Positions 14,575 through 33,782 of a stretch of DNA of 64,000 nucleotides are shown piece after piece. The notes under the pieces are model-generated. The model was not told the DNA's origin. It ran no database searches and saw nothing but the letters and a program-made list of their open reading frames with translations. Numbering within the stretch: the first letter of the stretch is position 1; each line of letters begins with the position of its first letter. The stretch covers positions 124,001 to 188,000 of the forward strand of contig NZ_CP064655.1 in assembly GCF_018141525.1 (NCBI RefSeq), written 5' to 3'. This stretch comes from Miltoncostaea marina (GTDB lineage Bacteria > Actinomycetota > Thermoleophilia > Miltoncostaeales > Miltoncostaeaceae). Both the position numbers and the translations under genes were made by a program.

Positions 14575-14745
14575 GAGGCAGGTCTCCTGGCTTCCGTTCG
14601 CAGCGACGTCGCGCCTTCCCGGTCGGACCGGTGGCCGGCTTCTCGCCCAGCGACGCCGCTCCCGGTGACAGTGGCGGGACCGCGCCGGATTCGCACCGGC
14701 TTCCCTCGAGCGCCCGAAGGCGACCACCCACCCGAGACACACGGA
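14575..14745 (-). ncRNA. Cobalamin (B12) riboswitch
   Basis: Read on the minus strand, the leader contains, in order, GAAGCCGGTGCGAATCCGGC, GCGGTCCCGCCACTGTCACC, GAGAAGCCGGCC, GGGAAGGCGCGACG and the B12-box-type 3' end AAGCCAGGAGACCTGCC, which together define the family. It ends about 30-40 nt before the DUF4430 lipoprotein start, so ligand binding likely blocks translation of the first gene. This identifies the ECF operon as B12-responsive. Confidence 0.93.
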
Positions 14746-17013: not shown

Positions 17014-17031
17014 GATCCCCGTACCGCTCTG

Positions 17032-17808
17032 CTACGCCAAGACGCGCCCGAGGAGGTAGTGGCAGGCCGCGATCTCCATCCAGGCCCGCGCGCTCGCGGC
17101 CGGGCCCTCATACGAACGCGACAGGCGCCGCCAGCGGCCGAGGCGCGCGAAGGCGTCCTCGATGCGCCACAGCGGCCGCAGCGGCGTGACGCGCGAGGCG
17201 CCCTTCGGTGGCGCCTTGATGTCGAGGGCGATGCCGCGGCGTGCGCACATCGCCGCCAGCCCGCGGTAGCCGCGGTCGGCGACGATCGCCTTGACGCTCG
17301 GCATGGCGTCGAGCACCGCCTCGAGCAGCTCGCGAGCGACGCGTACATCCTGTGGTCGGGCCGAGTCGTCCCGCACCGCGACCGGCGAGCCGGTGATGTC
17401 GAGTAGCAGCGTGCGTTTGGCGCCGTTGGTGCGCCCGCCGCGGCCGCCCGACTCGTGGAACGACGGGCCGGCTCGACCCCCGCGGGCCACCTGGGCGTCG
17501 ACCATCAGCATCGAGGGGTCGACCGTGCGGCCCTTCATCAGCCGGGCGATCTGGCGAAGGCGGGTCAGCAGCTTCGCCAAGACGCCGCTGTCGCGCCAGC
17601 GGCGGAACTGCCGCCAGACCGTTCCCCATGCGGGCTGTTCCGACGGCAGGTAGCGCCACGGCGACCCTGTACGGGCGAGGTAGAGGATCGCGTCGGCGAT
17701 CGCTCGCCGCGAGATGGCAGGCGGACGACCCCGCCGGCCCGATGCGGGCTCCAGCAGGTCGCAGACGAGGCGCCACTCGTCGTCGGTGACGTCACTCGGG
17801 TAGGCCAT
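17032..17808 (-). CDS. IS5-family DDE transposase
   Basis: This 258-residue protein is encoded in one uninterrupted frame. The N-terminal DUF4096-like region is MAYPSDVTDDEWRLVCDLLE, followed by GSPWRYLPSEQPAWGTVWRQ. Catalytic residues can be assigned as D104 (LMVDAQVA), D178 (IVADRGYRG) and E217 (WRIEDAFARLGRWRRL), with the family's R-x-Y-E ending (SRSYEG). The gene fills the right part of the element and starts 70 bp inside the right terminal repeat. It looks functional, although its left repeat is now split by the TnpB insertion, so the element may no longer move. Confidence 0.93.
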   Translation of the reverse strand: MAYPSDVTDDEWRLVCDLLEPASGRRGRPPAISRRAIADAILYLARTGSPWRYLPSEQPAWGTVWRQFRRWRDSGVLAKLLTRLRQIARLMKGRTVDPSMLMVDAQVARGGRAGPSFHESGGRGGRTNGAKRTLLLDITGSPVAVRDDSARPQDVRVARELLEAVLDAMPSVKAIVADRGYRGLAAMCARRGIALDIKAPPKGASRVTPLRPLWRIEDAFARLGRWRRLSRSYEGPAASARAWMEIAACHYLLGRVLA

Positions 17809-18214: not shown

Positions 18215-18499
18215 GTGCACGAGCCCGGCCTCACGGACCCCCGCACCGTCTTCGAGCTCACCCGTCCCGGCCGCCTGATCGACGCGCTCGAGGCCTGCAT
18301 GGCGCGGCGCGTCGCCCCGCTGCGCTCCGGCTGGTCGGCCACCGGCCACCTCGGCCGCGACCTGGAGCGCCACTACGGCGTGCGCGTCCCCCGGCCGGCG
18401 ATCGACCGGGCCCTGCGCGTGCTGGCCCGGCGGGGGCGCATCGACCTGCGCGCCGGGCGCGACGGCGCCCTCTGGTTCCGCCTGCGCGACCAGGGCTAG
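18215..18499 (+). CDS. Small winged-helix-like protein
   Basis: This 94-residue frame starts at GTG 18215, with GGAGG 7 nt upstream; a longer frame from 18164 lacks such a site. The second half (WSATGHLGRDLERHYGV, IDRALRVLARRGRIDLRAG, ALWFRLRD) has the helix-helix-wing rhythm of small winged-helix DNA-binding domains. It has no ligand-binding domain. Its stop overlaps the end of the convergent B3/4 gene by 4 bp. A role in regulating the neighbouring glycan operon is possible but unsupported. Confidence 0.6.
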   Translation: MHEPGLTDPRTVFELTRPGRLIDALEACMARRVAPLRSGWSATGHLGRDLERHYGVRVPRPAIDRALRVLARRGRIDLRAGRDGALWFRLRDQG

Positions 18500-19206
18500 C
18501 GCCCGGCGCCGCCGCCCGCCCCGCCGGCCGCGAACGTCCGCGCCGACGTCCGGCACCCGGGCTGGTGCTCCTGCAGCAGCGCGACGAGGTCCGCGACCGC
18601 CGCCGCGACGTCGGCCGCCGCCGCGTCGTGATGGCCCTCCACGAGCAGGAGCGCCTCGGAGGTGTCCGGCCCGGCCACGCTGTGCGTGCTCTGGCGCCAG
18701 CACCAGCGGCGGGCGACCACCGCCCCGTGCCGGTCGACCAGCACCACCTCGCCGCGCTCGGGCGTCGCATCCGCCCCTGATCCGAGGTCGGTGAAGCGCT
18801 CGTCGCCGTCGGCGAAGCGCACGGTCACGCCGCCCCCGAGCGCGGCGAGGTCGAACACCGCCACCGGCAGCGCGTGGCGGATCGAGACGAGGTTGCCGAT
18901 GTCGACGAGCGCGCCGATGGAGGGGATCGCACCCTCCTTCCCGAGCCGGCGCAGGAGCGCCTCGGCGGCGGAGCGGTGCTGGGTCGGGCGGACCCCGAAG
19001 GCGCTGAAGGCCCGCCGCCACGCGGCGATGGACGGCATCTCGGCGACGGGCGTGGCCGCGAGGCGCCCGGCGGCCGCCCGCTGCTCGGCGGCGTACTCGG
19101 CGCGCAGCGCCTCCGGGGCCGGGCCGCCGGCGACGCCCGCGGCGTGGACGACGCCCGCGCGGGCGGCGGGGAACGCTGCTGCGACGGCGGGGTCGTAGGC
19201 GAACAC
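18496..19206 (-). CDS. B3/4-domain protein (PheRS beta-like editing domain)
   Basis: This 236-residue protein matches the stand-alone B3/4 domain found in the phenylalanyl-tRNA synthetase beta chain, where it edits mischarged tRNA or binds amino acids. Typical stretches are AWRRAFSAFGVRPTQHRSA, SIGALVDIGNLVSIRHALPV and GVTVRFADGDERFTDLG. It is the last gene of the ten-gene glycan locus, 17 bp after the ATP-grasp gene. In this setting it might bind or screen the amino acid that the ATP-grasp ligase attaches, but that is inference. The C-terminus is Gly/Ala-rich. Confidence 0.8.
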   Translation of the reverse strand: MFAYDPAVAAAFPAARAGVVHAAGVAGGPAPEALRAEYAAEQRAAAGRLAATPVAEMPSIAAWRRAFSAFGVRPTQHRSAAEALLRRLGKEGAIPSIGALVDIGNLVSIRHALPVAVFDLAALGGGVTVRFADGDERFTDLGSGADATPERGEVVLVDRHGAVVARRWCWRQSTHSVAGPDTSEALLLVEGHHDAAAADVAAAVADLVALLQEHQPGCRTSARTFAAGGAGGGAGR

Positions 19207-19223: not shown

Positions 19224-20363
19224 TCAGGGCGGGCCGCCGGCCGCGGCGCGCATGTCAGCGAACCACGCCCGGTGGTGGGGCGCCAGCGCGGCGGCGATGC
19301 GCGGCTCCCACCCGAGCCCCGGGTGCGAGTTGATCTCCAGCAGCCGCAGCTCGTAGCCGTCGTCGCCCCGGCGCTCGACGATCAGGTCCAGCCCCGCCAC
19401 GAGCAGGGCCCGGCCCTGCGGCCGCGGCCAGTCGCGCGCGGCGCCCGCGATCGCCGCGAACACCTCGCGGGCGAGCGCCTCGAGCCGGCGCCAGAAGCCC
19501 GGCAGCGGGCGGTGCTCGCGCTCGACGTACGCCAGCATCTCGGTCAGCGGCAGGTTCTCGGCGGGGCCGCCGCCGGGCCGGTGCGACTCCGCGTTGAGCC
19601 ACTCGTCGAGCCGGCCGCTGCCCGGCCGGGCGGGGGCGGCGGTCGTCTTGGCGACGCCCTCCCGGTAGACGCGCACCTCCAGCGGGTCCAGCGAGGTCGC
19701 CATCGCGTGGACGCGGGCGTCCCAGCGCCGCCCCCGGTAGAGGAAGGCGTCGGCGACCAGGTCCTGCGCGACGAACGGCGCGCGGGCGCCGGCGGCGACC
19801 TCGGCGGCCATCGCCGCGGCCGCGTCGCGCGGCACGATCTCGATGCCCCGGCACTGTCCGCTGCGCGACGGCTTGACGATCACGAGCCCGCCGCCCTCCT
19901 CCGCGGCGGCCTCGTCCGGGAGCAGCGTGCGCGGGCGGGGGATCCGCGCCCCGGTCGCCGCCTCGCGCGCGCGCAGGCACCGCTCCAGCTCGCACTTGCC
20001 GTCGAGCCAGCCGAGCAGCGACGACTGCGTGTGGCGGCAGCCCGACGTCCCGACGATCGCGTCGAAGAGGGGCGCGTGGCCCCAGTCGACGCCCCAGGTC
20101 GTCAGGACGACGGCCGGCGTGCGGGCCACGCCGCGCGCGGTGACCAGCGGCCCGCCGGGGTGCTGCACCCGGCAGCGCCCGGCGCGCACCCGGCCCCCCT
20201 CGACGGCGAGCGCCCGCCAGCCGGCGACGACCGCCGTCATCCCGGCCGCGGCGGCGGCGGATGCGAGCGGTGCCCACTCCTTGCGCCGCCGCCCGAGCCA
20301 CTCGTCCGGATAGATCAGGAGCGCCGTCGGCGGCGCGCCGGTGCGGGCGCCCGCGCCGCTCAC
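19224..20363 (-). CDS. Tubulin-tyrosine-ligase-like ATP-grasp enzyme
   Basis: About 379 residues. The ATP-grasp core is clear: VIVKPSRSGQCRGIEIV (nucleotide-binding strand and loop), RWDARVHAMATSLDPLEVRV, REGVAKTT, and the metal-binding end LRLLEINSHPGLGWE. This layout is that of TTL/TTLL-type ligases, which join an amino acid to a carboxylate through an acyl phosphate. The N-terminal ~130 residues form a Rossmann-like pre-ATP-grasp domain. It starts at GTG 20363, overlapping the glycosyltransferase stop by 4 nt. Inside this cluster it could attach an amino acid to a glycan, lipid or aromatic acid; the substrate is unknown. Confidence 0.82.
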   Translation of the reverse strand: MSGAGARTGAPPTALLIYPDEWLGRRRKEWAPLASAAAAAGMTAVVAGWRALAVEGGRVRAGRCRVQHPGGPLVTARGVARTPAVVLTTWGVDWGHAPLFDAIVGTSGCRHTQSSLLGWLDGKCELERCLRAREAATGARIPRPRTLLPDEAAAEEGGGLVIVKPSRSGQCRGIEIVPRDAAAAMAAEVAAGARAPFVAQDLVADAFLYRGRRWDARVHAMATSLDPLEVRVYREGVAKTTAAPARPGSGRLDEWLNAESHRPGGGPAENLPLTEMLAYVEREHRPLPGFWRRLEALAREVFAAIAGAARDWPRPQGRALLVAGLDLIVERRGDDGYELRLLEINSHPGLGWEPRIAAALAPHHRAWFADMRAAAGGPP

Positions 20364-21514
20364 CGCAGGCCCGCCGTCTCGAGCATCCCGGCGAGCACGG
20401 TGCGCGCCTCGAAGTGCTCCTCGGCGACCCGGCGGGCGGCGCGCGCCTGACGGTCGTAGTCGCGGTCGAGCCGGTCGAGGGCGTCGACGAGCGAGTCCAG
20501 GTCGGCGAAGGGCAGCACGCCCGCGTCGGCCGGGAGCCAGTCGCCGTAGCCGGTGTCCTGGTGGAGCACCGGCCTGCCGGCGGCCAGGAAGCACGCGCTG
20601 CGATCGCTGAACCACCCCGACCTGCTGGCCACGTAGGCGTGCTTCGCCACGCCGATGTCGCCGCGCGAGCCCGCGATGAAGGCGGCGTACGCCTCGGGGG
20701 TCGCCGTCACCTTCAGCGGGTTGACCAGCCGCCAGCCGGCGCGCCCGAGCGCCTCGCGCGGGACGGCGCCGCCGCCGGCCGCGAGCACGTACTCGCCGCC
20801 GCGCCGCGACGGCAGCGCGGCGACGCGGCCGAACTCGCGGTCCTTGTGGCCGTACGACCTGCCGGCGTGGCGCACCTCGCCCCCGGCGGCCCAGTGCATG
20901 AGCGCGACGAAGGGGGCGCCGGGGGGCGGCGGGGCGCACCGCCAGGCCGACGTCGCCACGACGGGGCGCGTCGGAATCCAGGAGCGGCCCGCGTCGGGCA
21001 CCGTGCAGTCGGCGGCGCCGATCCGCGCCGCGAAGGTGAAGAGGGTGTCGTAGTGGCGGGGCGCGTCGGCGCGACTGCCCGCGCCGGCGGCGAGCGCGGT
21101 CTGGGTGAACATCGGGTCGCCGTCGATGAAGAGCCGCCGCGGGCAGCGCTCCAGCTCGTCGAACCACGTGGGGTCGACGACGGTGAGCACGAACTCGGCC
21201 TCGCCGAGCGCCGCCAGCAGGCGTTCCCAGCCCGCCCCGTGGCACGCGCCGTCCCGGTCGATGAAGCTCCACCGGCCGGCGAAGCCGAAGCGCTCGGCGA
21301 CCGCCGACAGGTAGCGCACGGCGGCGTCCGGCCGGTCCGTCATCGCGTCCGAGGCCGGGTCGTAGGTCTCGAGGGGGCGGTTCTGGCGCTCGACGTAGTG
21401 CACGCGGTAGCCCAGCTCGCGCAGCCCGAGGACGTAGTGCACGTAGTGCATCGTGAGGCCGCCGTACGGCAGCTTGCCGATGCCACCGACGCAGACGGCG
21501 AGCGGGGCGCTCAT
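20360..21514 (-). CDS. CgeB-like glycosyltransferase, copy 1
   Basis: This 384-residue protein has a GT-B-like layout. The N-terminal Gly-rich segment is GGIGKLPYGGLTMHYVHYVL. The middle has FIDGDPMFTQTAL and an ALMHWAAGGEV stretch. The C-terminal donor-binding domain has VAKHAYVASRSGWFSDRSA and LAAGRPVLHQDTGYGDWLP. The C-terminal pattern is shared by the two other transferases of this locus, indicating paralogy. ATG 21514 overlaps the preceding stop and its own stop overlaps the ATP-grasp start. It is expected to be cytosolic, adding a sugar to a carrier. The specific sugar cannot be read from the sequence. Confidence 0.82.
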   Translation of the reverse strand: MSAPLAVCVGGIGKLPYGGLTMHYVHYVLGLRELGYRVHYVERQNRPLETYDPASDAMTDRPDAAVRYLSAVAERFGFAGRWSFIDRDGACHGAGWERLLAALGEAEFVLTVVDPTWFDELERCPRRLFIDGDPMFTQTALAAGAGSRADAPRHYDTLFTFAARIGAADCTVPDAGRSWIPTRPVVATSAWRCAPPPPGAPFVALMHWAAGGEVRHAGRSYGHKDREFGRVAALPSRRGGEYVLAAGGGAVPREALGRAGWRLVNPLKVTATPEAYAAFIAGSRGDIGVAKHAYVASRSGWFSDRSACFLAAGRPVLHQDTGYGDWLPADAGVLPFADLDSLVDALDRLDRDYDRQARAARRVAEEHFEARTVLAGMLETAGLR

Positions 21515-22659
21515 GCGCCGACCGCCTCGAGCAGCGGCGCGAGCGCCCGGTCGGGCGCGAGGAACTCGCGGGCGATCTCGCGGGCCGCGGCCGAGTGGCG
21601 GCCGTAGTCGGCCTCGATCCGCTCGATGGCCGCTGCGGCCTCCTCGGCGTCGCGGACGGCGAACAGGCCCTCGCCGCACGGCAGGTGGGCCGAGATGCCG
21701 GTGTCCTGCACGACGACCGGCCGGCCGGCCGCCAGGTAGGCCGCGCTGCGGTCCCCGAACCACCCGCTGGCGGTCGCCACGAACACCTGCTTGGCCACGC
21801 TGAACTCCCCGCGCGAGGCGCGCACGAACGCGCGGTAGGCGTCGTAGGACGCGGTCACGGCGTGGGCCTCCCGGATCGCCCAGCCGCACGCGCGCAGCCG
21901 CGCGCGCGGCACCTCCCGCCCCGCCACGGCCAGCTCGAAGCGGGCGCCGCGGGCGACCCGGGGCAGCGCGGCGAACCGCTCGAACTCGGCGTCCTTCTGG
22001 CCGAAGACGGCGCCGTCGTACTCGAGCGCCTCGTGCGCGCGCCAGTTCATCACCGTCGTGTAGGGCGCCTCCGGGTCCGGGGGCAGCGGCGCGAACTGGT
22101 CCAGCAGCACGGGGTAGCGGACATGGCGCCACGGCAGGCCCAGCGTCGGGACGGAGCTCGCCGGCGTGCCCACCCCCTGGCCCACCGTGAAGTAGGCGTC
22201 GTAGCGCGGGGTCGCCTCGCCGCCCCGCCGGCGCAGGTCCCAGCGCATCTGCGTCCATCCCGGCTCGCCGTCGATCAGCGCGGTGACGGCGCGCCCGCCG
22301 ACGTCGCCGAGCCAGAGCCCGTGCGTGCCCGCGTCGATGAAGGCGTCGCAGGTGCGCAGGGCCTCGCGCAGCCCCGCCCGCGACATGCCGTGCGCGCGGC
22401 CGGCCGCGTCGACGAAGCACCAGCGCCCCTCGAGGCCGAACCTCGCGAGCAGCGTCGCGACGACCGCGGTGCCGCGCGTGCAGTCGTCGGTCATCTCGCG
22501 GCGCACGGGGTCGAAGCAGGACGACGCCCAGCCGCTCCGCTCCGCCACCACCACGTCGTGGCCCAGGCGGCGCAGCCCGGCGACGAGCTGCAGCGACATC
22601 GACAGCATGCCGCCGAGCGGGTAGCGGACCATGTAGACGCCGACGACGATCCGCGCCAC
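21511..22659 (-). CDS. CgeB-like glycosyltransferase, copy 2
   Basis: This 382-residue paralogue of the flanking transferases starts VARIVVGVYMVRYPLGGML. Shared landmarks are ALIDGEPGWTQMRWDL, YTTVMNWRAHEALEYDG, GQKDAEFERFAALPR, FSVAKQVFVATASGWFGDRSA and LAAGRPVVVQDTG. The start is GTG 22659, one base after the pyruvyltransferase stop; the end overlaps the next transferase by 4 nt. Three related transferases in a row suggest stepwise building of an oligosaccharide rather than redundancy. Acceptor and donor are unknown. Confidence 0.82.
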   Translation of the reverse strand: MARIVVGVYMVRYPLGGMLSMSLQLVAGLRRLGHDVVVAERSGWASSCFDPVRREMTDDCTRGTAVVATLLARFGLEGRWCFVDAAGRAHGMSRAGLREALRTCDAFIDAGTHGLWLGDVGGRAVTALIDGEPGWTQMRWDLRRRGGEATPRYDAYFTVGQGVGTPASSVPTLGLPWRHVRYPVLLDQFAPLPPDPEAPYTTVMNWRAHEALEYDGAVFGQKDAEFERFAALPRVARGARFELAVAGREVPRARLRACGWAIREAHAVTASYDAYRAFVRASRGEFSVAKQVFVATASGWFGDRSAAYLAAGRPVVVQDTGISAHLPCGEGLFAVRDAEEAAAAIERIEADYGRHSAAAREIAREFLAPDRALAPLLEAVGA

Positions 22660-22660
22660 G

Positions 22661-23545
22661 TCAGCCGCCCCCGCCCGCGAGCTCGTCGGCCACGGCCGCC
22701 CGCACCGGCGCGAGGGCGCGGCGGGCGCGCGCCGCCGTGGCCGCGGCGGCGCGCGCCGCCTCGGGCCGCAGGCACCAGCCGAGCGCCTCGCGCAGCGCCG
22801 CGGGCGTGGCGGCGTCGACCGGGAGGGCGTGCGGCCAGCCGAGCGCCTGCGCCTGCCGCAGCACCTTGGCGCCGCCCCGCACCGGATCGACGGCGACGGC
22901 GGGCACCCCGTGCTTGAGCGCCAGCACCAGCCCGTGGAGCCGGGTGGTCACGACCACGTCGACCCGCGCGATCAGCGCCTCGACCTGCGCCGGCGTGGAG
23001 AGGCCGGTCGCGTTGCGGTCGAGCCGCGTGTCGATCGGGACGACGGCCAGCCCCGCGTCGGCGAGCAGCGCGTCCACGAGCGCGTCCGCCTCGGCGTGGG
23101 CGGCACGGTCGCCGTACTCGTCCTGGCGGTGCACGAGCACGCGGCCGGCGACGGGCGCGGGCGGCGCCTCCGACAGCAGGGACAGGTCCGGGCGTGCCGT
23201 GCGCGAGCTGTCGCGCTCGAGCAGCAGGTCGAAGGGGTTCCAGCGCTCCAGCGGGTCGAGCATCGAGACGTCGAGGCCGACCATGCGGCGCCCGGCGAAC
23301 CGCGGCAGGAACTCGGTCAGCGGCCAGCCGTCGCCGCACGGCCCGCACACGAAGACCACCCGGTCGTAGGCGCCGGGGTCGACCGCGCGCCAGTCGACGC
23401 CGCCCGCGAACGGCGGGTCGAGGGCGACGTCGTGGGGCACGCCCGCCTCGCGCAGCCACCCGCACACGACGTCGCGCGCCAGCAGGTCGCCCGCGGTGGC
23501 GCCCATCCCCGCGAACGAGAACCATCCGGCGACGAGCGTCCTCAC
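22661..23545 (-). CDS. Polysaccharide pyruvyltransferase-family protein
   Basis: This 294-residue protein has the family core VDVVVTTRLHGLVLALKHGV followed by PAVAVDPVRGGAKVLRQ. The N-terminus is SFAGMGATAGDLLARDVV, and the middle motif DVSMLDPLERWNPFDLLLE is also present. Members transfer pyruvate from PEP onto sugars as acidic ketals, giving negative charge to exported glycans. The start is GTG 23545, overlapping the transferase stop by 4 nt. It lies between two of the CgeB-like transferases, strong context for glycan decoration. Some relatives have lost pyruvyl activity, so the reaction is inferred. Confidence 0.8.
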   Translation of the reverse strand: MRTLVAGWFSFAGMGATAGDLLARDVVCGWLREAGVPHDVALDPPFAGGVDWRAVDPGAYDRVVFVCGPCGDGWPLTEFLPRFAGRRMVGLDVSMLDPLERWNPFDLLLERDSSRTARPDLSLLSEAPPAPVAGRVLVHRQDEYGDRAAHAEADALVDALLADAGLAVVPIDTRLDRNATGLSTPAQVEALIARVDVVVTTRLHGLVLALKHGVPAVAVDPVRGGAKVLRQAQALGWPHALPVDAATPAALREALGWCLRPEAARAAAATAARARRALAPVRAAVADELAGGGG

Positions 23546-24789
23546 GCGCCCGCCCCCACGGGGGCCCGGGGTCCCGTGCCGAGCGCGTCCTCGACCAGCG
23601 CGCCGAGCACGCGCCCGGCGTCGAACCACTCCGCGGCGATTTCGCGGGCCGCGCGCGCGTGGCGGGCGGGGTCGGCGACGACCGCCTCGATCGCCGCCAG
23701 GGCGCCGTCCGCGGAGTCGAAGGCGAGCACGCCGAGCCCGGCGGGGGGCGACGGCGCGAAGCCGGTGTCCTGCACAACGACCGGGCGGCCGCAGGCGAGG
23801 TAGCACGCGCTGCGGCAGCTGAACCAGCCCGACCGGCCGGTGACGTAGCCGCCCTTCGCGACGCTCAGCTCGGCCCGCGACGAGCGGATGTACGCCCGGT
23901 AGGCCTCGGGCGTGCCGCAGGCGGCGAAGGCGTCGCGCACCCGCCAGCCCGCCGCGGCGAGCACCTCGGCCGGGGTCCCCGCCGCGCTCGCGCCGTCCCC
24001 CGGCGACTCCCAGCCGGCGTGGCGCAGCGACCCGAGGGCGATCTCGAGCGGCACGGGCGAGCGCGCCGGCAGCGTCAGCAGCCGGCGCAGCTCGACGTCC
24101 TTCTGGCCCAGCACGCGCCCGCGCGCCTCGACCGGCGGGTAGCTCGTCCAGCTCATCACGGTCGTGAGGGCGTCGCCGGCCGCCGCCGCGGGCGGCCAGT
24201 CGGCGAGGACCACCGGCTGGCGCGTCGGCAGCCAGCGGTGGCCCGTCGCGAACGGGCCGTCGGCCACCCGCGAGCCGAAGCTGAACGTGACGTCGTGCGC
24301 GTCCACCCGGCGCGCGAATGCGCCCGCCGGATCCTCGATGATCCGCGCCTGCGTGAACACCGGGTCGGAGTCGATGTACGCGAGCCGGGGGATGCCGCGG
24401 TAGCGGCCGGGGTCCTCGAGCGTGCCGGAGACGTTCACCAGGAGGTCGGCCGACCGCAGGATCTCCGCGCGCCGGCGGTCCGGGACCCCGTACCAGCGGC
24501 CCTCGAGCGGCGAGCGGTACATCCAGCGGCCGCCGAGGCCGGCGCGCTCCATCACGGCGGCGAGGTGGCGCACGTTGGCGTGCCCGTCGGCCACCCAGCT
24601 GGCGGGGTCCGCGCCGCCGTCGAGCCGGTACGGCCACTCGCCCGAGTCCTCGAGGTACCAGACGTCGTGGCCCAGCCGCGCGAGCCCCGCCGGGTACTGC
24701 ACGTAGTCCCAGGCGACGCCGCCGAGGCGGGGGTGCTGCGCGATCAGGCCGGTCACGACCACGCGCAGCCGGGACGCGGTCCGGGTCAT
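23542..24789 (-). CDS. CgeB-like glycosyltransferase, copy 3
   Basis: At 415 residues this is the longest of the three paralogues. Landmarks are VVVTGLIAQHPRLGGVAWDY, WYLEDSGEWPYRLDGGADP, RLAYIDSDPVFTQARI, GQKDVELRRLLTLPAR, LSVAKGGYVTGRSGWFSCRS and ACGRPVVVQDTGFAPSP. It carries a ~20-residue insertion around GWESPGDGASAAGTP that the other copies lack. ATG 24789 overlaps the ABC exporter stop and its own stop overlaps the pyruvyltransferase start. It is probably the first of the three transferases to be translated after the exporter. Confidence 0.82.
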   Translation of the reverse strand: MTRTASRLRVVVTGLIAQHPRLGGVAWDYVQYPAGLARLGHDVWYLEDSGEWPYRLDGGADPASWVADGHANVRHLAAVMERAGLGGRWMYRSPLEGRWYGVPDRRRAEILRSADLLVNVSGTLEDPGRYRGIPRLAYIDSDPVFTQARIIEDPAGAFARRVDAHDVTFSFGSRVADGPFATGHRWLPTRQPVVLADWPPAAAAGDALTTVMSWTSYPPVEARGRVLGQKDVELRRLLTLPARSPVPLEIALGSLRHAGWESPGDGASAAGTPAEVLAAAGWRVRDAFAACGTPEAYRAYIRSSRAELSVAKGGYVTGRSGWFSCRSACYLACGRPVVVQDTGFAPSPPAGLGVLAFDSADGALAAIEAVVADPARHARAAREIAAEWFDAGRVLGALVEDALGTGPRAPVGAGA

Positions 24790-26576
24790 CGGCGCGACCG
24801 CGCGGCGGCGCGCGACCCGCGGACCCCGGCCGGCGCGTCGGTCGACACCACCCGTCCCTCGGCGAGCTGCAGGTAGGCGTCGCAGCGCGCGAGCGTCGAG
24901 AGCCGGTGGGCGATCATCACGACGGTGCGGCCCTCCATGAGCCGCTCCATCGCGTCGATCATCATCGCCTCGGTCGCGACGTCGACCGCGCTCGTCGGCT
25001 CGTCGAGGATGAGGATCGGGGCGTCGGTCAGGAAGGCCCGGGCCAGCGAGATGCGCTGGCGCTCGCCCCCCGACAGGGTCATGCCGCGCTCGCCCACCAG
25101 GGTGTCGTAGCCGTCGGGCAGCGCCTCGACGACGTCGTGGACGCCCGCCGCGCGCGCGGCGGCGGCGATCTCGTCCAGCCGCGCGCCGGGCCGCCCGTAC
25201 GCGATGTTCTCCGCGATCGTCGTGGAGAACAGCACCGGCTCCTGCAGGACGACGGCGAACTGGCTGCGCAGGTCGGCGACCCGCAGGTCGCGGATGTCCC
25301 GGCCGTCGAGCAGCACGCGGCCGGCGCCCGGGTCGTGGAAGCGCATCATGAGCCCGACGAGGGTCGTCTTGCCGGAGCCCGTGCGGCCGGCGATGCCGAG
25401 GCGCGTGCCGGGCGGGATCGCGAACGAGATGTCGTGCAGCACCGGGCGCGCCGGGTCGTAGCCGAAGGTGACGCCCTCGAAGGTGATCGCGCCCTCGGCG
25501 CGCCGCGCGGGCCGCGGGTACCGGGGGTCGGCGACGTCCGGCTCCTGGTCGAGCACGAACAGCGCCCGCTCGGCGCTGGCGAGCGACTCCTGCAGCGTGG
25601 TGACCGAGTGCGCGATGGTGCTCATCGGCTGGTAGAGCTGCACGAGGTAGGCCATCACCACGAGCAGGCTGCCGAGGGTGATCACGCCGTCCTGGACGTG
25701 CGAGACGCCGATGTAGAGGGCGGCCGCCGTGCCGACGGCGACGGTGAGGGCCGTCAGCAGGCCGAACAGGCCCTCCGCCACCGCGAGCCGGATGCGGGCG
25801 GACGTGCTGGCGCGGGAGCGCTCGACGTAGCGCACGTGCTCGCGGTCCTCCTGCCCGAACGCCTTCACCACGCGCAGCCCGGAGAGCGCCTCCTGCACCA
25901 CCGCCATGGCCGAGCTGTCGAGGGTGCGCTCGCGCGCCCACCCGGCGCGCAGGCGCCGGCGGAAGGCGATCGTCAGGGCGACCAGCACGGGCGCGACGGC
26001 GAGCGCGACCAGGGCGAGCTGCCAGTCGATGGACGCGGTGACGGCGATCATGCCCGCCACCATCAGCCCCGAGCTCACGAAGGGCGTGACCCCGTTGACG
26101 GCGATCCACTGGATGGCCGGCGCGTCGTACTGGATGCGGTAGAGCGAGTCCGTCACGCCGCGCCGGTCGTGGTACGTGAGCGACAGCCGCTGGACGTGCC
26201 CGAAGAGCGCGGTCCGGAACCCGAGGACCAGCCGTTCGCCGGTGGAGGTCTCGAGCACGTCCTTCGCGAAGGTCGTCAGCTGCGACGCGAGCGCGATCAG
26301 CACGACCAGCGCGGTCACCACCGCCAGCAGGCCGCCCTTCGAGTCGGTCATGCCGTCCGGCAGCACGCCGAGCCAGCCGGGCACCGGCTCGTCGCCGATC
26401 ACGTTGTCGACGGCGATCTTCAGCGGCAGCGGGGCCAGCAGCGCGAGCGGGGCCGCGAGGAGCCCGAGCGCGAACAGGCCGCCGATGTGCGGCCAGTGGT
26501 CGCGCGCCTGCACCAGCAGCCGCCGGTAGACGCGCAGGTCGCCGCCGGGCGGCCCGGGGGCGCGCGGCTCAGCCAT
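24786..26576 (-). CDS. ABC exporter, fused membrane and ATPase domains (MsbA/MDR type)
   Basis: This 596-residue half-transporter is expected to homodimerise. Six transmembrane helices fill about residues 30-325. The ATPase domain (about 350-585) has Walker A GRTGSGKTT, Q-loop VVLQEPVLFSTTIAENIAYG, signature LSGGERQRISLARA, Walker B ILILDEPTSAVD and H-loop IAHRLSTL. Such transporters flip lipid-linked or amphipathic products. It starts at ATG 26576 (MAEPRAPG), overlapping the upstream gene by 8 bp. Its place in the operon suggests it exports the product of the surrounding glycosyltransferases. Confidence 0.92.
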   Translation of the reverse strand: MAEPRAPGPPGGDLRVYRRLLVQARDHWPHIGGLFALGLLAAPLALLAPLPLKIAVDNVIGDEPVPGWLGVLPDGMTDSKGGLLAVVTALVVLIALASQLTTFAKDVLETSTGERLVLGFRTALFGHVQRLSLTYHDRRGVTDSLYRIQYDAPAIQWIAVNGVTPFVSSGLMVAGMIAVTASIDWQLALVALAVAPVLVALTIAFRRRLRAGWARERTLDSSAMAVVQEALSGLRVVKAFGQEDREHVRYVERSRASTSARIRLAVAEGLFGLLTALTVAVGTAAALYIGVSHVQDGVITLGSLLVVMAYLVQLYQPMSTIAHSVTTLQESLASAERALFVLDQEPDVADPRYPRPARRAEGAITFEGVTFGYDPARPVLHDISFAIPPGTRLGIAGRTGSGKTTLVGLMMRFHDPGAGRVLLDGRDIRDLRVADLRSQFAVVLQEPVLFSTTIAENIAYGRPGARLDEIAAAARAAGVHDVVEALPDGYDTLVGERGMTLSGGERQRISLARAFLTDAPILILDEPTSAVDVATEAMMIDAMERLMEGRTVVMIAHRLSTLARCDAYLQLAEGRVVSTDAPAGVRGSRAAARSRR

Positions 26577-29163
26577 CCACCGGGCGGCGCACGAGCGGGT
26601 CGGGCACCACCTCGGGCTCGCCGGCCCGTTCGCGGGCGGCCGGGGCCTCCTCGGCGCCGCCGAGCGCGCGGACGGCCTCGCCGAGGGCGCCGCCGGACTC
26701 GCGCAGCATGAGCCCCGCGAGCCCGGCGGCCGCCAGCCCCAGGATCGCGGCCGCCACCGCCGCGCCGTCGGCGAGGGCCAGGCCTGCGAGGACGGCGACG
26801 AGCGCGAGCAGCGCCGCGGCCCAGACCGGCCACGAGGGGACGACGCGCGCGCGCACGAGCTGGGCGCCCCCGCCGTGGTCCTCGACCGCGAACCGCACGC
26901 GGGCCGACCCGAACAGGCCCCCGCGGACGCGCAGGTCCCAGCGATCGAAGGCCCCGCCGCGCTCGACGACGACCTCCCGGGCGGCCAGCGCGCGCTCGAC
27001 GTCATGGATGCGCGTCGCGGGGTCGCGCCAGTCCTCGCACCACCGCCTGACCCCGCGCGGGCGCGGCACCAGGCGGCCCGACGTGCGGCCGCGGCTCCAG
27101 GGCGCGAGGCCGTAGTCGAAGCGGCCCGACATCCGCGCGAGCGGCTGGGCCGCCGTGAGCATCGCGGTGATGGCCCGGAGCCGGAGCCGCTCGCCGGGCG
27201 GTCGCGCCTCGAACCGCGTCCGCAGGCCGCGCGCGGCCGCGCCGGCCAGCGTGGCGACGAGCGCGGCGGCCGCGACGGGCAGCGCCAGCAGGAGGGGCGT
27301 CCACGCGATCCCCACCGTGCCGAGCACGGCGAGCAGCGCGATCGCCAGGTACCACTCGGGCATGAGCGGCGCCGCCGCCAGCGCGCCCGGCGCCCGCTGG
27401 TAGAGCGACTGGAAGGGCGCCGCGCCCCACACGCCGTGGTAGATCCGGCCGGCCCGCCGGCCGATCCGGCGCAGCACGGCGTTGCCGTACACGGATCCGC
27501 CCCAGCTCACGTGGCCGAGCACGTTGTACTTCTCCGGCCACTTGCGCTCGAGCAGCGCCTCCGCCCGCCCGTAGCCGCGCTGCTGGCGCCAGTAGGCCCG
27601 CACGGAGGGGCGCCGGTGGTGCCAGACGACGGCGGCGGGGCTGAAGCCGATGCGCCACCCCGCCGCCTGGATCCTCCAGCAGGCGTCGACGTCGTCGCCG
27701 GCCACGCGGAAGGTGGGGTCGAAGCCGCCGATCGCCGCCAGCGCCGACCGCCGGAAGGCCATGTTGCAGCCGGGGATGTGCTCGGCCTCGGTGTCCGAGA
27801 CCAGGACGTGGATCGGCCCGCCGGGCGCGTGCCCCACCGCGTGCGACACCGGCGGATCCTCGTGGGGGGTGATGTTGGGGCCGCCGATGGCGGCGTAGGC
27901 CGAGGTGAGGAACGACCACGCGAGGTGGCGGAGCCAGTCTGGGTCGGGGTAGGCGTCGTCGTCGAGGTAGGCGACGATCTCGCCGGTCGCGGCCTGCCAC
28001 CCGGTGTTGCGCGCCGCGCTGAGGCCGGCGTTGGCCTGCGAGACGAGCCGCACGCCGAACTCGCCGGCGATGGCGGCGGTGGCGTCCGTGGAGCCGTCGT
28101 CGACGACGATCACCTCGCGATGCGGGTAGTCCACGCGCTCGAGCGCCTCGAGGGTCTGGCGGATGGTCCGCGCGCCGTTGTAGGAGCACACCACCACGGA
28201 GACGGTCGGCCAGTCCACGTCGTGAGGGAACGGCACCGCGTCGAGCGCCCGGGACACGGCCGCCAGCGCCGGCTTCGGCGAGCGGTCGGCGCGCGTCAGG
28301 CCGAACGCCCAGTCGTCGACCGGCGCGCCCGCGCGGTGCCACTCGTCGGTCCAGGAGAAGACGACGGCGCCGGCGCACCCCGCGGCGAAGACCGTGCGCA
28401 GCTGCCAGTCGAGCACCTCGGCCTGGCGCCACTCGCCGTTGCGCATCGCGTCCAGGCCCAGCTCGCTCATCAGCAGCGGGCGGTCGCCGGCGATGTTCTG
28501 CAGTCGGGCGATGTAGGCCGTCAGCCGCTCGCGGGACTCGAGGTAGACGTTGAACGAGACCGCGTCGAGGAACGGCAGCTGCAGGTACTCGGTCGTCGGG
28601 TAGTTGACGTAGGTGACGATCCCCGCCGGGTCCTCCTCCTTGACGGCCCGGTAGAGGACCTCCAGGTGGCGCTCGATGCGCCGCCTGCCGAGCCAGCGCG
28701 CGAGCTGCGCGGGGATCTCGTTGCCCAGCGCGTAGCAGAGCAGCGCCGGGTGCCCGGCCACCGAGCGGACCCGCTCGCGCACCATGCGCTCGACGTCCGG
28801 CGCGCCGCGCGGGTCGGCCAGGTAGCCCACGTACTGCTCGGCCGAGAGGCCGACCATCACGCGCAGCCCGTGGCGGGCGGCGGCGTCGAGCAGCGTGACG
28901 GGCGGCGTCGTGTGGGGGATGCGCACCGTGTTGAAGCCGGCCGCCGCCATCGCCGCGAAGTCGCGCTCGATGGTGTGGTGCGCGCGGTACTCCGCGCCGT
29001 CCGCGTCGGGCGCGAAGGCGCCGTAGGAGACGCCCTTCACCAGCAGGGTGCGCCCGTCGGCGACGATGAACTTACCGCGCACCGCGGGGCGGGACGGCGG
29101 CGCGCCAGGCGCCGGCGGCGGCGCGCCGCCGCGGATGCCGCCCGGTGACGTGGTCGTCGCCAT
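26569..29163 (-). CDS. Glycoside hydrolase-glycosyltransferase GT2 fusion, membrane protein
   Basis: This 864-residue chain has two enzymes. Residues ~28-310 form a GH2/GH5-like TIM barrel: KGVSYGAFAPD, acid/base candidate E149 in YALGNEIP and nucleophile candidate E234 in LMSELGLDA. Residues ~319-560 form a family-2 glycosyltransferase: VSVVVCSYNGARTIRQTLEA, VIVVDDGSTDAT, metal-binding DDD at 401-403 and GDDVDACWRIQAAGW. Two helix pairs follow (about 610-660 and 775-830). There is no signal peptide, so the barrel is probably cytosolic and may act as a transglycosidase or a binding module. The ATG at 29163 lies 8 bp after the PP-loop gene. Confidence 0.85.
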   Translation of the reverse strand: MATTTSPGGIRGGAPPPAPGAPPSRPAVRGKFIVADGRTLLVKGVSYGAFAPDADGAEYRAHHTIERDFAAMAAAGFNTVRIPHTTPPVTLLDAAARHGLRVMVGLSAEQYVGYLADPRGAPDVERMVRERVRSVAGHPALLCYALGNEIPAQLARWLGRRRIERHLEVLYRAVKEEDPAGIVTYVNYPTTEYLQLPFLDAVSFNVYLESRERLTAYIARLQNIAGDRPLLMSELGLDAMRNGEWRQAEVLDWQLRTVFAAGCAGAVVFSWTDEWHRAGAPVDDWAFGLTRADRSPKPALAAVSRALDAVPFPHDVDWPTVSVVVCSYNGARTIRQTLEALERVDYPHREVIVVDDGSTDATAAIAGEFGVRLVSQANAGLSAARNTGWQAATGEIVAYLDDDAYPDPDWLRHLAWSFLTSAYAAIGGPNITPHEDPPVSHAVGHAPGGPIHVLVSDTEAEHIPGCNMAFRRSALAAIGGFDPTFRVAGDDVDACWRIQAAGWRIGFSPAAVVWHHRRPSVRAYWRQQRGYGRAEALLERKWPEKYNVLGHVSWGGSVYGNAVLRRIGRRAGRIYHGVWGAAPFQSLYQRAPGALAAAPLMPEWYLAIALLAVLGTVGIAWTPLLLALPVAAAALVATLAGAAARGLRTRFEARPPGERLRLRAITAMLTAAQPLARMSGRFDYGLAPWSRGRTSGRLVPRPRGVRRWCEDWRDPATRIHDVERALAAREVVVERGGAFDRWDLRVRGGLFGSARVRFAVEDHGGGAQLVRARVVPSWPVWAAALLALVAVLAGLALADGAAVAAAILGLAAAGLAGLMLRESGGALGEAVRALGGAEEAPAARERAGEPEVVPDPLVRRPVDG

Positions 29164-29171
29164 GCGCGCCG

Positions 29172-30335
29172 CTACCCGGGGATGATGTCCGGGTCGCCGG
29201 CCGCCGCGCGCGCGTCGAAGTCGGCGAGGATGGCGTGGACGCCGGCGACCAGGTCGTAGCGCGCGCGGCGCTCGAGCAGCGGCACCAGGTCGGCGTACGC
29301 GTCCCGCAGGTTGCCGACCCAGATCATCCGGTACTCGATCACCGTCTGGAGCAGGTCGCGGTCGATGTCGCGCTCCGCGAACGCGGCCGACTCGCGCAGC
29401 TTGCCGAGCGCGACGAGCATGAGCTTCGTGCGGATGCACTTCTCGCACGTCCCGCAGTTGCCGCTGCCGCGCACGTCGTGCACGCAGACGCGGATGTTGT
29501 CGAGGCCCACCGGCCAGCCGGCGACGAGCGCCGTGCGCTCCAGGCGCGGCATGTAGGTGCCGTGGTGGTGCACCTGCAGGCGGGCGCTCGAGTAGTAGGG
29601 GTCGAGCAGCGGGCTCGAGCCGGCCGGCACCGACGGGTGCTGCGCGTCGATGCTGGCGGCGATGTAGGCGTGCCGGTACGCGCCGCTCAGCACGTGCGCC
29701 GCCGACAGGAACATGGCGCCGAAGGCGCTCTTCGCGAAGAACCAGCCGTCGCCGTCCAGCGACCAGATGTTCGTCCGCATCAGCACCACGTCGGCGCCCA
29801 CGTCGTCGCAGACGCGCCGCGCCGCGTCGATCTTCGCGGCGTCCGGGTTGGAGCGCTCGGCCCGCTCGTCGACGAAGTCGACCAGCAGGCAGGAGCGGAT
29901 GGCGAGCGGGTGGTCCGGGTCGAACCACAGCCGGTTGGCGCGCAGCGTGGCCAGCGAGTCGATCCCGCACGACAGCAGCGAGAGCGCGCGATCGCCCGTG
30001 GGCGGCGGCGCCTCGTGGCCGGCCCACTCGACGGCCGGCGGCGGCCCGAGCTCCGGGTACCAGGAGGCGAGCGTCAGCAGCGGCGCCCGCAGCTGGTCCA
30101 GCAGCATGGGGCACAGCGGCCCCTCCACCCGCACCCGCCGCTCGCCGGCGTGCCAGGCGGGCAGGACGGCGCCGACCAGGAAGGCGTTGGGGTCGGCCGT
30201 GAGCGGCGCGGCGTGGTCGGGCCCCACCTCGTAGTAGAGCGTCTGCTCCGCGCGCGGCGCGTCCTCCCAGGCGATCCGCGCCTCCACGCGGCGCGCGCCG
30301 TCGGTCGCCCGCTCGGCGACGGGCCCGACGATCAC
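29172..30335 (-). CDS. QueC-like PP-loop ATPase with a cysteine cluster
   Basis: This 387-residue protein has a PP-loop motif LLSCGIDSLATLRANR (SCGIDS at 122-127), which binds ATP and adenylates a substrate carboxylate or carbonyl. A later cluster NCGTCEKC (C294, C297, C300, with C284 nearby) resembles the zinc site of QueC. The ~110-residue N-terminal region is not recognised. It starts at GTG 30335, overlapping the monooxygenase stop by 4 nt. No queuosine genes are nearby, so a tRNA role is unlikely. Inside a glycan operon it may activate a carboxylate for amide or nitrile formation. Confidence 0.75.
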   Translation of the reverse strand: MIVGPVAERATDGARRVEARIAWEDAPRAEQTLYYEVGPDHAAPLTADPNAFLVGAVLPAWHAGERRVRVEGPLCPMLLDQLRAPLLTLASWYPELGPPPAVEWAGHEAPPPTGDRALSLLSCGIDSLATLRANRLWFDPDHPLAIRSCLLVDFVDERAERSNPDAAKIDAARRVCDDVGADVVLMRTNIWSLDGDGWFFAKSAFGAMFLSAAHVLSGAYRHAYIAASIDAQHPSVPAGSSPLLDPYYSSARLQVHHHGTYMPRLERTALVAGWPVGLDNIRVCVHDVRGSGNCGTCEKCIRTKLMLVALGKLRESAAFAERDIDRDLLQTVIEYRMIWVGNLRDAYADLVPLLERRARYDLVAGVHAILADFDARAAAGDPDIIPG

Positions 30336-31765
30336 TCGGCCACCGCCGGGGTGCCGAGGAGCTCGGGCGCGCGGGCGGCCGCCGGGCGCGCGGCGGCGTC
30401 GCCGAGGGCGTCGAGCTCGACCTCGAGGAGCGCGCGCACGTCGACGTCGTCCCACCGCGACTCGATGTCGGGCACGGCGGCCAGCCGGTCGAGCAGCGCC
30501 TCGTGTCGCTCGCGGATGCGCGCGATCTCGGTGTACGGGTGGCACTCGAACGCGACCATCGTGTAGAGCGGCACGAAGCGGTCCGGCGCCAGCGCGTGGA
30601 GCCGCTCCTCGATCGCCTTGCGGCGGACGAAGCCCGGGTCACGGGCCGCGCGCGCGAGCTCGTCGAAGTGCCGTTCGGCGAGCGCGATGGCGGCCTCGCC
30701 GTTGTCGAGCCGCTCGGCCTCGAAGGCCGCGAGCGCCGCCGCCCAGTCGTCGTCGGCGCGGTCGAGGCACGCCATCAGGGCCGTGCAGTCCTCGAAGCCC
30801 GCGTTGAGGCCCTGCCCGAGGAACGGCACGAGCGTGTGGGCGGCGTCGCCGATCAGGGCCAGCCATCCGTCGTGCACCCACGGCGCGCAGCCGGAGCTGA
30901 GCAGCGGCGCCGGGGTGCCGTTGAAGAAGTCGTGGGCGAGGTGCTCCACGTTGACCGCGAGGTCGCCGCAGCTGCGGGCGAAGAAGAGGTCGAGCGTGTC
31001 CCGGTCGCACAGGGCCGCGAACGAGACCTCGCCCTGCGAGGGCATGAAGACCGAGACCGTGAAGCTGCCGTCCACGTTCGGGAAGCCGACGATCATGCAG
31101 TCCCCCCGCGGCCACAGGTGCAGCGCGCAGGTCGCGTACGCCGGCGCGCCGGATCGCGAGGGCGGGACCCGCATCTCGCGGTACGAGATCGGCGACAGCC
31201 GCTGGTAGAAGCGGAAGGCGGGGTCCTTCAGCAGGCTCCGCCGCACGGCCGAGAACGCGCCGTCGGCAGCGAGCACCCGCGCGGGGCGCGCCTCGACCGG
31301 CGACCCGGCCGGCGTGCGCAGCGCGATCGTCCGCCGCGCCACGTCGACCGCCACGCAGCGGTGCCCGAAGCGCACGGCGACCCGGGGCTCCCGCTCGGCG
31401 AGGTCGAGCAGCCGCATCGTGAGCTCGGCGCGCGAGGCCGAGAAGATCGCGTCCCGGCGCGGGGTGTAGCGCTGGAAGCGCGTGCCGCCGCCCTCGTCGT
31501 GGATCATCCGGCCCTCGAGGGGCAGCGCGATCTCCCGCACGGCGTCGTCGACCGCGGCGGCCCGCAGGCCGCGCCACCCGCGCTCGGCGAGCGTCAGGTT
31601 GATCGATCGCCCGCCCGGCAGCGGGTTGACGCGGGGGTCCGGCCGTGCCTCGAGGACCTCCACGCCGTAGCCGCGGCGCGCGAGGAGGATCGCGAGCAGC
31701 GTCCCCACCGGTCCCGCCCCCACGATGGTGACGTCGAACGTCCGGTCGGCGTTCCGGCGCGCCAT
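30332..31765 (-). CDS. FAD monooxygenase, kynurenine-3-monooxygenase-like
   Basis: This 477-residue flavoprotein begins with the dinucleotide-binding fold TIVGAGPVGTLLAILLARRG. It continues with GGRSINLTLAERGWRGL, which is highly characteristic of kynurenine 3-monooxygenase. The FAD/ribityl motif is LIGDAAHTLVPFLGQGLNAG. Known relatives hydroxylate kynurenine or similar anthranilate-type aromatics with NADPH and O2. No other tryptophan-catabolic gene is near. It heads the ten-gene glycan operon (ATG 31765), which suggests it makes a hydroxylated aromatic building block. A 70-bp gap separates it from the sigma factor gene upstream. Confidence 0.83.
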   Translation of the reverse strand: MARRNADRTFDVTIVGAGPVGTLLAILLARRGYGVEVLEARPDPRVNPLPGGRSINLTLAERGWRGLRAAAVDDAVREIALPLEGRMIHDEGGGTRFQRYTPRRDAIFSASRAELTMRLLDLAEREPRVAVRFGHRCVAVDVARRTIALRTPAGSPVEARPARVLAADGAFSAVRRSLLKDPAFRFYQRLSPISYREMRVPPSRSGAPAYATCALHLWPRGDCMIVGFPNVDGSFTVSVFMPSQGEVSFAALCDRDTLDLFFARSCGDLAVNVEHLAHDFFNGTPAPLLSSGCAPWVHDGWLALIGDAAHTLVPFLGQGLNAGFEDCTALMACLDRADDDWAAALAAFEAERLDNGEAAIALAERHFDELARAARDPGFVRRKAIEERLHALAPDRFVPLYTMVAFECHPYTEIARIRERHEALLDRLAAVPDIESRWDDVDVRALLEVELDALGDAAARPAAARAPELLGTPAVAE

Positions 31766-31835: not shown

Positions 31836-33782
31836 CTAACGCGGGCGGCGGCCCAAGGTCGACGCTATCTCCCCGGGCGCGGGTCCGGCGCCCGGGCGCC
31901 CCTCGGACGCGGCGGGCCCGGCGCCCTCCGGGCCGCCCGCCGGCCGCGGCGCCGCCGGCGCCGCGTCGGCGCGCCCGCCCTCCCCGCCGGCCCGCTCCGG
32001 CCCGCCGCCCGCGGGGCCCCGGGTCGCCGGCGCGGGCGGGCCCGCGGGCCCGCCGGCCTGCGCGGGCCGGGACGGCGGCGGGAGGGTGCCGGCGACGGGG
32101 GTCGCGGGGTGCCGGACGGCGGGCTCGGGCCGGGCCGCCTGGGGCGCGGGCCGGGCGGCGCCCGCCGGTGTCGCCGGCGGCCCGTGGGAGCCCGCGGCGG
32201 CCCCGGCCGCCGCCGCGGCGCGGGGCGGGACGCCGGGCGGAGGCCCGCCGGGCGGGTCGGCGCGGGGCGGGTCCGCGCGCCCCGGCCGGTCCCCCGCCGG
32301 TCCGCGCGCCGGGGCGCCGGCCACCTCGGGCCCGGCCGCCGCCGCCGCCCACGGCGGGGGCGCGGCAGGCTCGGCGGGCGGGGCGGCGACGGCGTCCGGT
32401 GGCGGCTGGGGCGCCGGCGCCGGGACGGGCCCCGCGGGAGGCGCGGAGGCGGCGCGGGGCCGGGCGGCCACGGGCGCCGCGCCCGCGGCCGGCGCGCCGG
32501 CGGCGGGCGGCGCGGCCGGATCCCCGGACCCGGCCGGCGTGTCCGCCCGGACGGCGGGCTCGGCGACGCCGGCGGGCGCGGCGACCCGCGGCAGGTCGCC
32601 CGCCGCGGCCGGCGCCGCGGCGGGCGTGGCCGCCGGCGGCGCCGAGGCGGGCGGGGGCGCCATGCCGGTGGCCGGGGCCGGGCCGGCGCCCCGGGTGCGT
32701 CCGACGAGGGGCGCCGGCGGCCGGGGCGGACCGGAACCGGCCTGTGCGGGGAGCGCCCACGCCGGCGGGTCGCCGGGTGCCTCGATCGCCGCCCAGCGGC
32801 CGCCGCCGGGCGCCTCCGGCGCGACGGCCGGCCCGCCCAGCACGGGCGGCGCCCCGACCGCCACCGCGATCGCGGCGACCGCCAGCTTGGCGGCGAGCGC
32901 GCCGCCCGCGCCGGAGGCGGCCCCCGCGCACGCCCCCGCGCCCGCGCCCGCGCACCCGCCGCCGGCCCCGCCGGAGAGCGCCGCCAGGGCGTCGCGCACC
33001 GCGCGGACGAGGCCCTGTATCGCGAGCAGCGGCAGCGCCGGCAGGAGCGCGAGCACCCGCCGTCCGGCGGCCGCGGGCGCGTGGGCGCCGCCGCAGGCCG
33101 GGCAGACGCGCAGGTGGGCCGCGACGGCCCGCGACCGGAGCACCCTCCCGTCGCCACCGTCCAGCCGCCGCCGCACCGCGGCGCAGTCGAGCGCCCGCCC
33201 CGCGGCCATCGCGTGCAGCCCCCCGCGCGCCAGGTGCACCAGCTGCTTGGCCGCCGCCGCCGTCACGCCGAGCGCCTCGCCGATCTGCGCGTGCGAGCGG
33301 CCCGCCATCTCGCGCAGCACCAGCGCGCCGCGCTGCTGGTCGGGGAGCGCGAGCAGGTCCTCCACCAGCCCCCGGAGGTCCTCGGCGGCCTCGATCCGCT
33401 CGGCCGGGCCCTCCCCCGGGCGCGGCTCCATCCCCGTCAGCGCGAGCGGCGGCTGGGGCGGGCGACGCCGCAGGATGCTCACGCACTCGTTGTGCGCGAC
33501 CCGGAACAGCCACGGCCGCAGGTCGATCGGCGCCTCCGGATGGGCGAGCAGCCAGCCGTAGGCGCGCATCATCGTGCTCTGGAGCGCCTCCTCGGCGTCG
33601 CGCTCGTCGCGCAGGATCGAGGCGCAGTAACTGACCAGGCGCTGGCGATAGCGCCGGTACAGCTCGTCGAACGCCAGGTCGTCGCCACCGCGTAGGCGGG
33701 CGACGAGCGCCGCGTCCGAGGCCGCGGCGGACGCCCGTTCGCGGGGTGCCGCGGGTCGGTGCGCGTCGGTGCTCGTCGTCAT
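31836..33782 (-). CDS. ECF sigma factor fused to membrane segments and a long Pro/Ala-rich tail
   Basis: 648 residues. Residues ~22-175 are an ECF sigma factor: region 2 FDELYRRYRQRLVSYCASIL, DAEEALQSTMMRAYGWL, LFRVAHNECVSILRR, and region 4 LPDQQRGALVLREMAGRSHA. A cysteine-containing stretch follows (VAAHLRVCPACGGAH), like an anti-sigma zinc finger. Hydrophobic segments come next (about 245-275 and 310-330), then ~320 residues of Pro/Ala/Gly. An attached zinc finger and membrane region suggest a sigma factor that carries its own tether. The start is ATG 33782. The tail lies in extremely GC-rich DNA and could be partly eroded coding sequence. Confidence 0.82.
   Translation of the reverse strand: MTTSTDAHRPAAPRERASAAASDAALVARLRGGDDLAFDELYRRYRQRLVSYCASILRDERDAEEALQSTMMRAYGWLLAHPEAPIDLRPWLFRVAHNECVSILRRRPPQPPLALTGMEPRPGEGPAERIEAAEDLRGLVEDLLALPDQQRGALVLREMAGRSHAQIGEALGVTAAAAKQLVHLARGGLHAMAAGRALDCAAVRRRLDGGDGRVLRSRAVAAHLRVCPACGGAHAPAAAGRRVLALLPALPLLAIQGLVRAVRDALAALSGGAGGGCAGAGAGACAGAASGAGGALAAKLAVAAIAVAVGAPPVLGGPAVAPEAPGGGRWAAIEAPGDPPAWALPAQAGSGPPRPPAPLVGRTRGAGPAPATGMAPPPASAPPAATPAAAPAAAGDLPRVAAPAGVAEPAVRADTPAGSGDPAAPPAAGAPAAGAAPVAARPRAASAPPAGPVPAPAPQPPPDAVAAPPAEPAAPPPWAAAAAGPEVAGAPARGPAGDRPGRADPPRADPPGGPPPGVPPRAAAAAGAAAGSHGPPATPAGAARPAPQAARPEPAVRHPATPVAGTLPPPSRPAQAGGPAGPPAPATRGPAGGGPERAGGEGGRADAAPAAPRPAGGPEGAGPAASEGRPGAGPAPGEIASTLGRRPR

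Follow-up and report, generated by a model that had tools for sequence, protein, structure and literature searches.

A PP-loop ATPase family of predicted QueC/QatC fold, separate from QueC and associated with glycan genes

P0001, the product of a gene in the 64,000-nucleotide stretch of Miltoncostaea marina DNA that was analysed here (the window), is predicted to adopt the QueC/QatC fold of PP-loop ATPases. It contains the PP-loop and a cysteine motif of the zinc type, it is encoded in a glycan operon of a host in which family searches recovered no queuosine pathway, and its relatives are recurrently accompanied by a homologue of polysaccharide pyruvyl transferases. P0001 probably applies the same ATP-driven activation chemistry to a building block of a surface glycan. 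Known uses of the QueC fold are the modification of tRNA and DNA bases and, as a recent addition, two anti-phage systems that presumably modify proteins. Literature searches recovered no account of glycan clusters with a QueC-like enzyme and none of the P0001 family.

The gene and its operon

On the minus strand, the open reading frame of P0001 starts with a GTG at 30335, and its stop codon ends at 29172. Its third-position GC content is 1.00, like that of the remaining operon genes, and its start codon and the stop codon of the gene upstream share a four-base overlap, GTGA. P0001 is therefore a real gene that lies within an operon. The genes of this operon, in their order, and the parts of P0001 are as follows.

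30332 to 31765, minus strand: kynurenine-3-monooxygenase-like (KMO-like) FAD monooxygenase, directly upstream of P0001, GTGA overlap
29172 to 30335, minus strand: P0001, predicted QueC/QatC-fold PP-loop ATPase, 387 amino acids, GTG start
30000 to 30335, minus strand: N-terminal domain of P0001 (residues 1-112), predicted RNase H-like topology (bbb-a-b-a-b)
29955 to 29972, minus strand: PP-loop SCGIDS, residues 122-127 of P0001
29436 to 29486, minus strand: zinc-type motif C284-x9-C294GTC297EK299C300 of P0001, in which NCGTCEKC corresponds to residues 293-300
26569 to 29175, minus strand: GH2-type TIM barrel fused to a family-2 glycosyltransferase, with a relative in locus L004
24786 to 26579, minus strand: MsbA-like ABC exporter (permease and ATPase)
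23542 to 24789, minus strand: CgeB-like glycosyltransferase 1 (PF13524)
22661 to 23545, minus strand: polysaccharide pyruvyl transferase homologue (PF04230)
21511 to 22659, minus strand: CgeB-like glycosyltransferase 2
20360 to 21514, minus strand: CgeB-like glycosyltransferase 3
19224 to 20363, minus strand: TTL-like ATP-grasp ligase (PF03133), apparently the last gene of the operon

Most junctions of this operon overlap by a few bases. The original prediction had described an SCGIDS PP-loop and an NCGTCEKC cluster in a protein with glycan genes as neighbours. Both motifs were located in P0001 at the expected places, and the downstream genes are glycan genes; the KMO-like gene upstream was missing from that description.

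The monooxygenase is strongly KMO-like (E 2e-71). Neither a kynureninase nor a tryptophan dioxygenase was matched in the host genome, so the enzyme stands outside the usual kynurenine pathway and its substrate is probably not kynurenine from the usual route. This, and the overlap of the two genes, would fit a role of P0001 in activating an aromatic acid that is made with the adjoining monooxygenase and then attached to the glycan. However, the KMO-like gene is absent from all fetched related loci and therefore cannot define the reaction of the family; we regard such a role as distinctly unlikely. Of the new carbohydrate- or aromatic-acid-activating branch that had been proposed, the separate branch and the link to glycans held up, whereas the aromatic part is left with a single non-conserved neighbour.

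TTL-like ATP-grasp enzymes form a class that includes carboxylate-amine ligases, and the protein at 19224-20363 is a second candidate for an amide-forming enzyme of the glycan operon. Among the fetched flanks of related loci, none contained its gene. The window operon has no recognisable glutaminase that could donate ammonia, and no ammonia donor of the HisH/HisF type was found in it.

Several other features surround the operon. Just upstream, the ECF sigma factor encoded by 31836-33782 has a tail of great length that is rich in proline and alanine. A protein with a B3/4 domain (PheRS editing-type) follows directly after the operon at 18496-19206. Near the operon end, a TnpB-like protein, in which a zinc finger was recognised by eye at the C-terminus, adjoins an IS4/5-type transposase (15558-17348 / 17032-17808), and a cobalamin riboswitch is located at 14560-14744 on the minus strand.

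The P0001 family and its separation from QueC

Six other lineages have full-length relatives of P0001 that are 39-44% identical to it. Together with the residues that are invariant in 56 of 56 aligned members (G124, D126, R264, C284, N293, C294, C297, K299 and C300), these relatives exclude a chance origin of P0001. Residue 267 is a Lys or an Arg in all 56 members. Relatives were found at 28 loci in other genomes. Relatives were also found on plasmids of Nostoc, Azospirillum, Gloeothece, Gemmobacter and Halorientalis, where they are annotated as 'hypothetical protein'. The family spans many phyla, often with more than one copy, and no Pfam or NCBIfam model covers it. In one sample of 398 proteobacterial genomes about 10 gave strong profile matches, as did about 12 of 244 genomes sampled from the cyanobacterial phylum. 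In the phylum of the window the family is rare, with matches in 4 of 149 genomes (the window's own, two clear cases and one weak case), and the four other genomes of the organism's own taxonomic family gave no match. Since no relatives were detected in phages or viral contigs and PADLOC gave no match, a defence setting for P0001 was rejected.

Some loci display unusual arrangements. A Nitrospirales contig (L008, 571-8663) contains four intact family copies in a row plus fragments, and tandem copies also occur in L013, L015, L147, L149, L153, L154 and L165. The family proteins of L098, L099 and L101 carry a fused D-Ala-D-Ala carboxypeptidase (Peptidase_S11) domain, whose SxxK motif apparently has glycine in place of the catalytic serine. 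These fusions hint at a cell-wall role.

The motif NCxxCxKC is contained in all 56 members and in none of seven QueC, six QatC and ten N-acetyl-sugar amidotransferase (NASAT) sequences; NCGTCEKC was one of the search patterns behind the 28-locus set, and the members found by profile carry NCxxCxKC as well. The NASATs are PP-loop enzymes that bind zinc and belong to LPS clusters (PMC10607449), so that P0001 would have in common with them both its glycan setting and an amide-activating step. A WbpG-like P0001 would convert an N-acetyl group into an acetamidino group. This assignment is unlikely: the NASAT cysteine pattern CxxC...[GN]xCxxC occurs in 10 of 10 NASATs and is absent from P0001 and from 55 of 56 members, NCBIfam TIGR03573 does not match, and the window operon lacks a recognisable ammonia donor of the HisH/HisF type.

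P0001 had been described as a QueC-like protein outside any queuosine setting. In a tree of the core domains, which has long branches and has to be read with caution, the 56 members group together in a single clade, to the exclusion of QueC and QatC (SH-aLRT 99), and P0001 does not fall inside QueC. PF06508 had no match over the cut-off in P0001 or elsewhere in the host genome. The QueC motifs YxQxHxxE, VPxRN and YPDC are present in 7 of 7 QueC sequences and in 0 of 56 members, P0001 included. Such substrate-side motifs of QueC were defined in PMC13329287, and three carry residues found essential by mutagenesis in that work. Furthermore, family searches of the host genome (one contig, 99% complete) yielded no QueC, QueD/PTPS or TGT, and the same searches were positive in most control genomes. 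It follows from the missing substrate motifs and from the absence of these three enzymes in the host that the substrate of P0001 is not a deazaguanine made by the cell. There is also no queuosine pathway in the host that merely lacks its QueC. In seven genomes of relatives, a strong canonical QueC exists alongside the family member.

The notion that P0001 is a drifted QueC of the queuosine pathway draws on the zinc motif and the PP-loop only. Given the separate clade, the lack of a PF06508 match, the missing motifs, the missing pathway and the canonical QueC in the genomes of seven relatives, it can practically be dismissed. By sequence, P0001 is not a member of the QueC family (PF06508), and the relation consists in the fold and two motifs. 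The label QueC-like is thus appropriate for the fold and the zinc motif, and inappropriate with respect to family membership.

Predicted structure and the N-terminal domain

The AlphaFold2 model of P0001 has a pLDDT of 92.7 and a pTM of 0.92. The top match of this model in VIA-align is QatC (Z 15.3, rmsd 4.5, 298 aligned residues, model residues 1-369), followed by QueC (Z 12.9, rmsd 3.0, 177 aligned residues, model residues 115-312). Cap9 reached a Z of 11.8 over the core and other PP-loop enzymes a Z near 10; the matches of AsnB-like enzymes, NadE, GuaA and MnmA are due to the common PP-loop core and were rejected. Foldseek gave no match below E 0.001 with the same model, and a PDB sequence search with either P0001 or the family profile as query returned no informative relative. 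Profile comparisons of the family with QueC, QatC and NASAT yielded short motif alignments only: in profile-profile comparison the values were 61% for QueC and 64% for QatC, over short segments, versus 98% between QueC and QatC. Because this match is weak, the chemistry of P0001 is argued from the fold and the motifs.

A region of about 110 residues at the N-terminus is kept throughout the family. It had been called unrecognised, and no Pfam model matches it. Its fold is predicted confidently, with a pLDDT of about 92 both when modelled alone and within the full protein; the structure search with this domain alone led to weak matches with RNase H-like folds at a Z of about 5, a level at which, according to the notes of the search tool, matches possibly reflect just a common arrangement. 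QatC was not recovered by the domain alone, and in the full model the region lies inside the range aligned with QatC. The domain is likely to be a non-catalytic platform. QatC requires an N-terminal extension of its own (PMC13279940).

The nearly full-length match to QatC, the best one in structural terms, raises the possibility that P0001 is a QatC/Cap9-like ligase, which would couple an activated acid to the N-terminal end of another protein, for example a glycosyltransferase or the pyruvyl-transferase homologue of the cluster. Protein N-termini are the targets of Cap9 and probably also of QatC (PMC13279940). A neighbour resembling QatA, QatB or QatD was not seen, however, PADLOC did not match P0001, and P0001 has no match over the cut-off to NCBIfam NF041925 (QatC). 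Moreover, the MG motif that Cap9 and QatB substrates need is not found at the start of any of the compared pyruvyl-transferase homologues, and the host lacks the known route to the deazaguanine that Cap9 uses. We consider the chance of such a ligase to be small.

Glycan association, proposed reaction and comparison with known systems

The block consisting of ABC exporter, CgeB-like glycosyltransferase, pyruvyl transferase and two further CgeB-like glycosyltransferases is common to the window and L001, and parts of it were found in L002, L004 and L005; these loci belong to different phyla. P0001 groups with its six closest relatives in a fully supported clade that spans several phyla, and four of the six share the glycosyltransferase/pyruvyl-transferase cluster, which suggests that the cluster was transferred as a unit. 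Cyanobacterial relatives are surrounded by glycan genes, and other neighbours of family members are glycosyltransferases, flippases and a sugar transferase. Several family loci have no glycan gene nearby; the family may therefore not be uniform in function.

Of 53 family loci, 20 have a pyruvyl-transferase homologue in their fetched flanks, compared with 0 of 14 NASAT loci (Fisher p 0.006, with some closely related loci counted more than once). On Azospirillum plasmids this homologue lies directly upstream of the family gene, and the other neighbours are not glycan-assembly genes. The distance matrices of the P0001 family and of the pyruvyl-transferase homologues are correlated (r=0.78, permutation p 0.00015), also without the subclade of the window (r=0.66, p=0.009); shared host descent could contribute to this correlation. 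Since about 60% of the family loci lack the homologue within the flanks seen, it cannot be a general source of the carboxylate for the whole family.

In PP-loop enzymes of this type, an acid or an amide is activated as ATP is split into AMP and PPi, and QueC joins ammonia to an adenylated acid. Since the zinc site and the PP-loop are kept, the deazaguanine motifs are absent and the setting is one of glycan genes, activation of an acid or amide on a glycan precursor is the most economical assumption. Our preferred reading, to which we give slightly less than an even chance, is that P0001 is a zinc-containing, AMP-forming PP-loop enzyme that activates and amidates a carboxylate or amide of a glycan precursor, perhaps next to pyruvylation. 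ATP would be bound at the PP-loop, and P0001 would adenylate a carboxylate (or an amide oxygen) on the precursor. An amine, most simply ammonia, would then displace AMP and give an amidated product, as in the first step of QueC. The likeliest carboxylate would be that of an acidic substituent, for example a pyruvate ketal introduced by the partner pyruvyl transferase, or of a uronic acid. The more specific idea of a family forming a glycan-dedicated QueC/QatC-fold branch that caps, for example by amidation, the carboxylate of a pyruvate ketal or similar acid is rather unlikely. To our knowledge, no enzyme has been described that amidates or caps the carboxylate of a pyruvate ketal on a sugar.

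The outcome might also be a nitrile or a sulphur transfer rather than an amide, given that QueC and ArtA, which belong to the same fold class, make nitriles, and that LarE and ThiI, which also appear among the structural matches, transfer sulphur (PMC13060819). However, nothing positive points to a second dehydration step, and the arrangement of the four cysteines is that of a QueC-type zinc site and not that of the three-cysteine iron-sulphur site of LarE, whose motif is given in PMC13329287. This outcome is quite improbable.

If the preferred reading, amidation of a glycan precursor, is true, the QueC fold would be used in surface polysaccharides independently of deazaguanine and would appear as a general acid-activating module; this use would also help to judge the possible reaction of QatC. 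The recurrent pairing with a pyruvyl-transferase homologue provides a concrete first candidate substrate for a family that occurs in many phyla yet is without a Pfam or NCBIfam model. The paper on the PF06508 superfamily (PMC13329287) mentions neither polysaccharide nor glycosyl nor DUF6395.

The domain family DUF6395 (PF19932) resembles P0001 by a weak match over the zinc-motif region (residues 280-332; 17.9 bits, below the cut-off of 25); weak matches occur in 4 of 25 family members, and no paper mentioning this domain was found. Asparagine-synthetase-like enzymes, including the nitrile synthetase ArtA, share the PP-loop core and catalyse amidation or nitrile formation. In contrast to them, P0001 has no match to their N-terminal glutaminase domain and contains a QueC-type zinc motif. 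NASATs (WbpG, TIGR03573) are likewise PP-loop and zinc enzymes of glycan clusters, but P0001 differs from NASAT/WbuX in cysteine layout and sequence family. QueC has in common with P0001 the fold of the core domain (Z 12.9), the PP-loop and the arrangement C-x(n)-CxxCxxC. P0001 deviates in its PP-loop, which reads SCGIDS instead of SGGxDS, in the C-x9-C spacing of the zinc motif, in its extra N- and C-terminal parts and in the lack of YxQxHxxE, VPxRN and YPDC. QatC is similar in the PP-loop, a four-cysteine zinc site, the absence of YPDC and, in the structural alignment, nearly the full length, perhaps with a comparable N-terminal extension; unlike QatC of the anti-phage system qatABCD, P0001 belongs to a separate clade, contains NCxxCxKC, has no QatA, QatB or QatD partners and is found in a glycan setting. 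The P0001 family thus combines a known fold and known motif chemistry with a new branch and a new setting.
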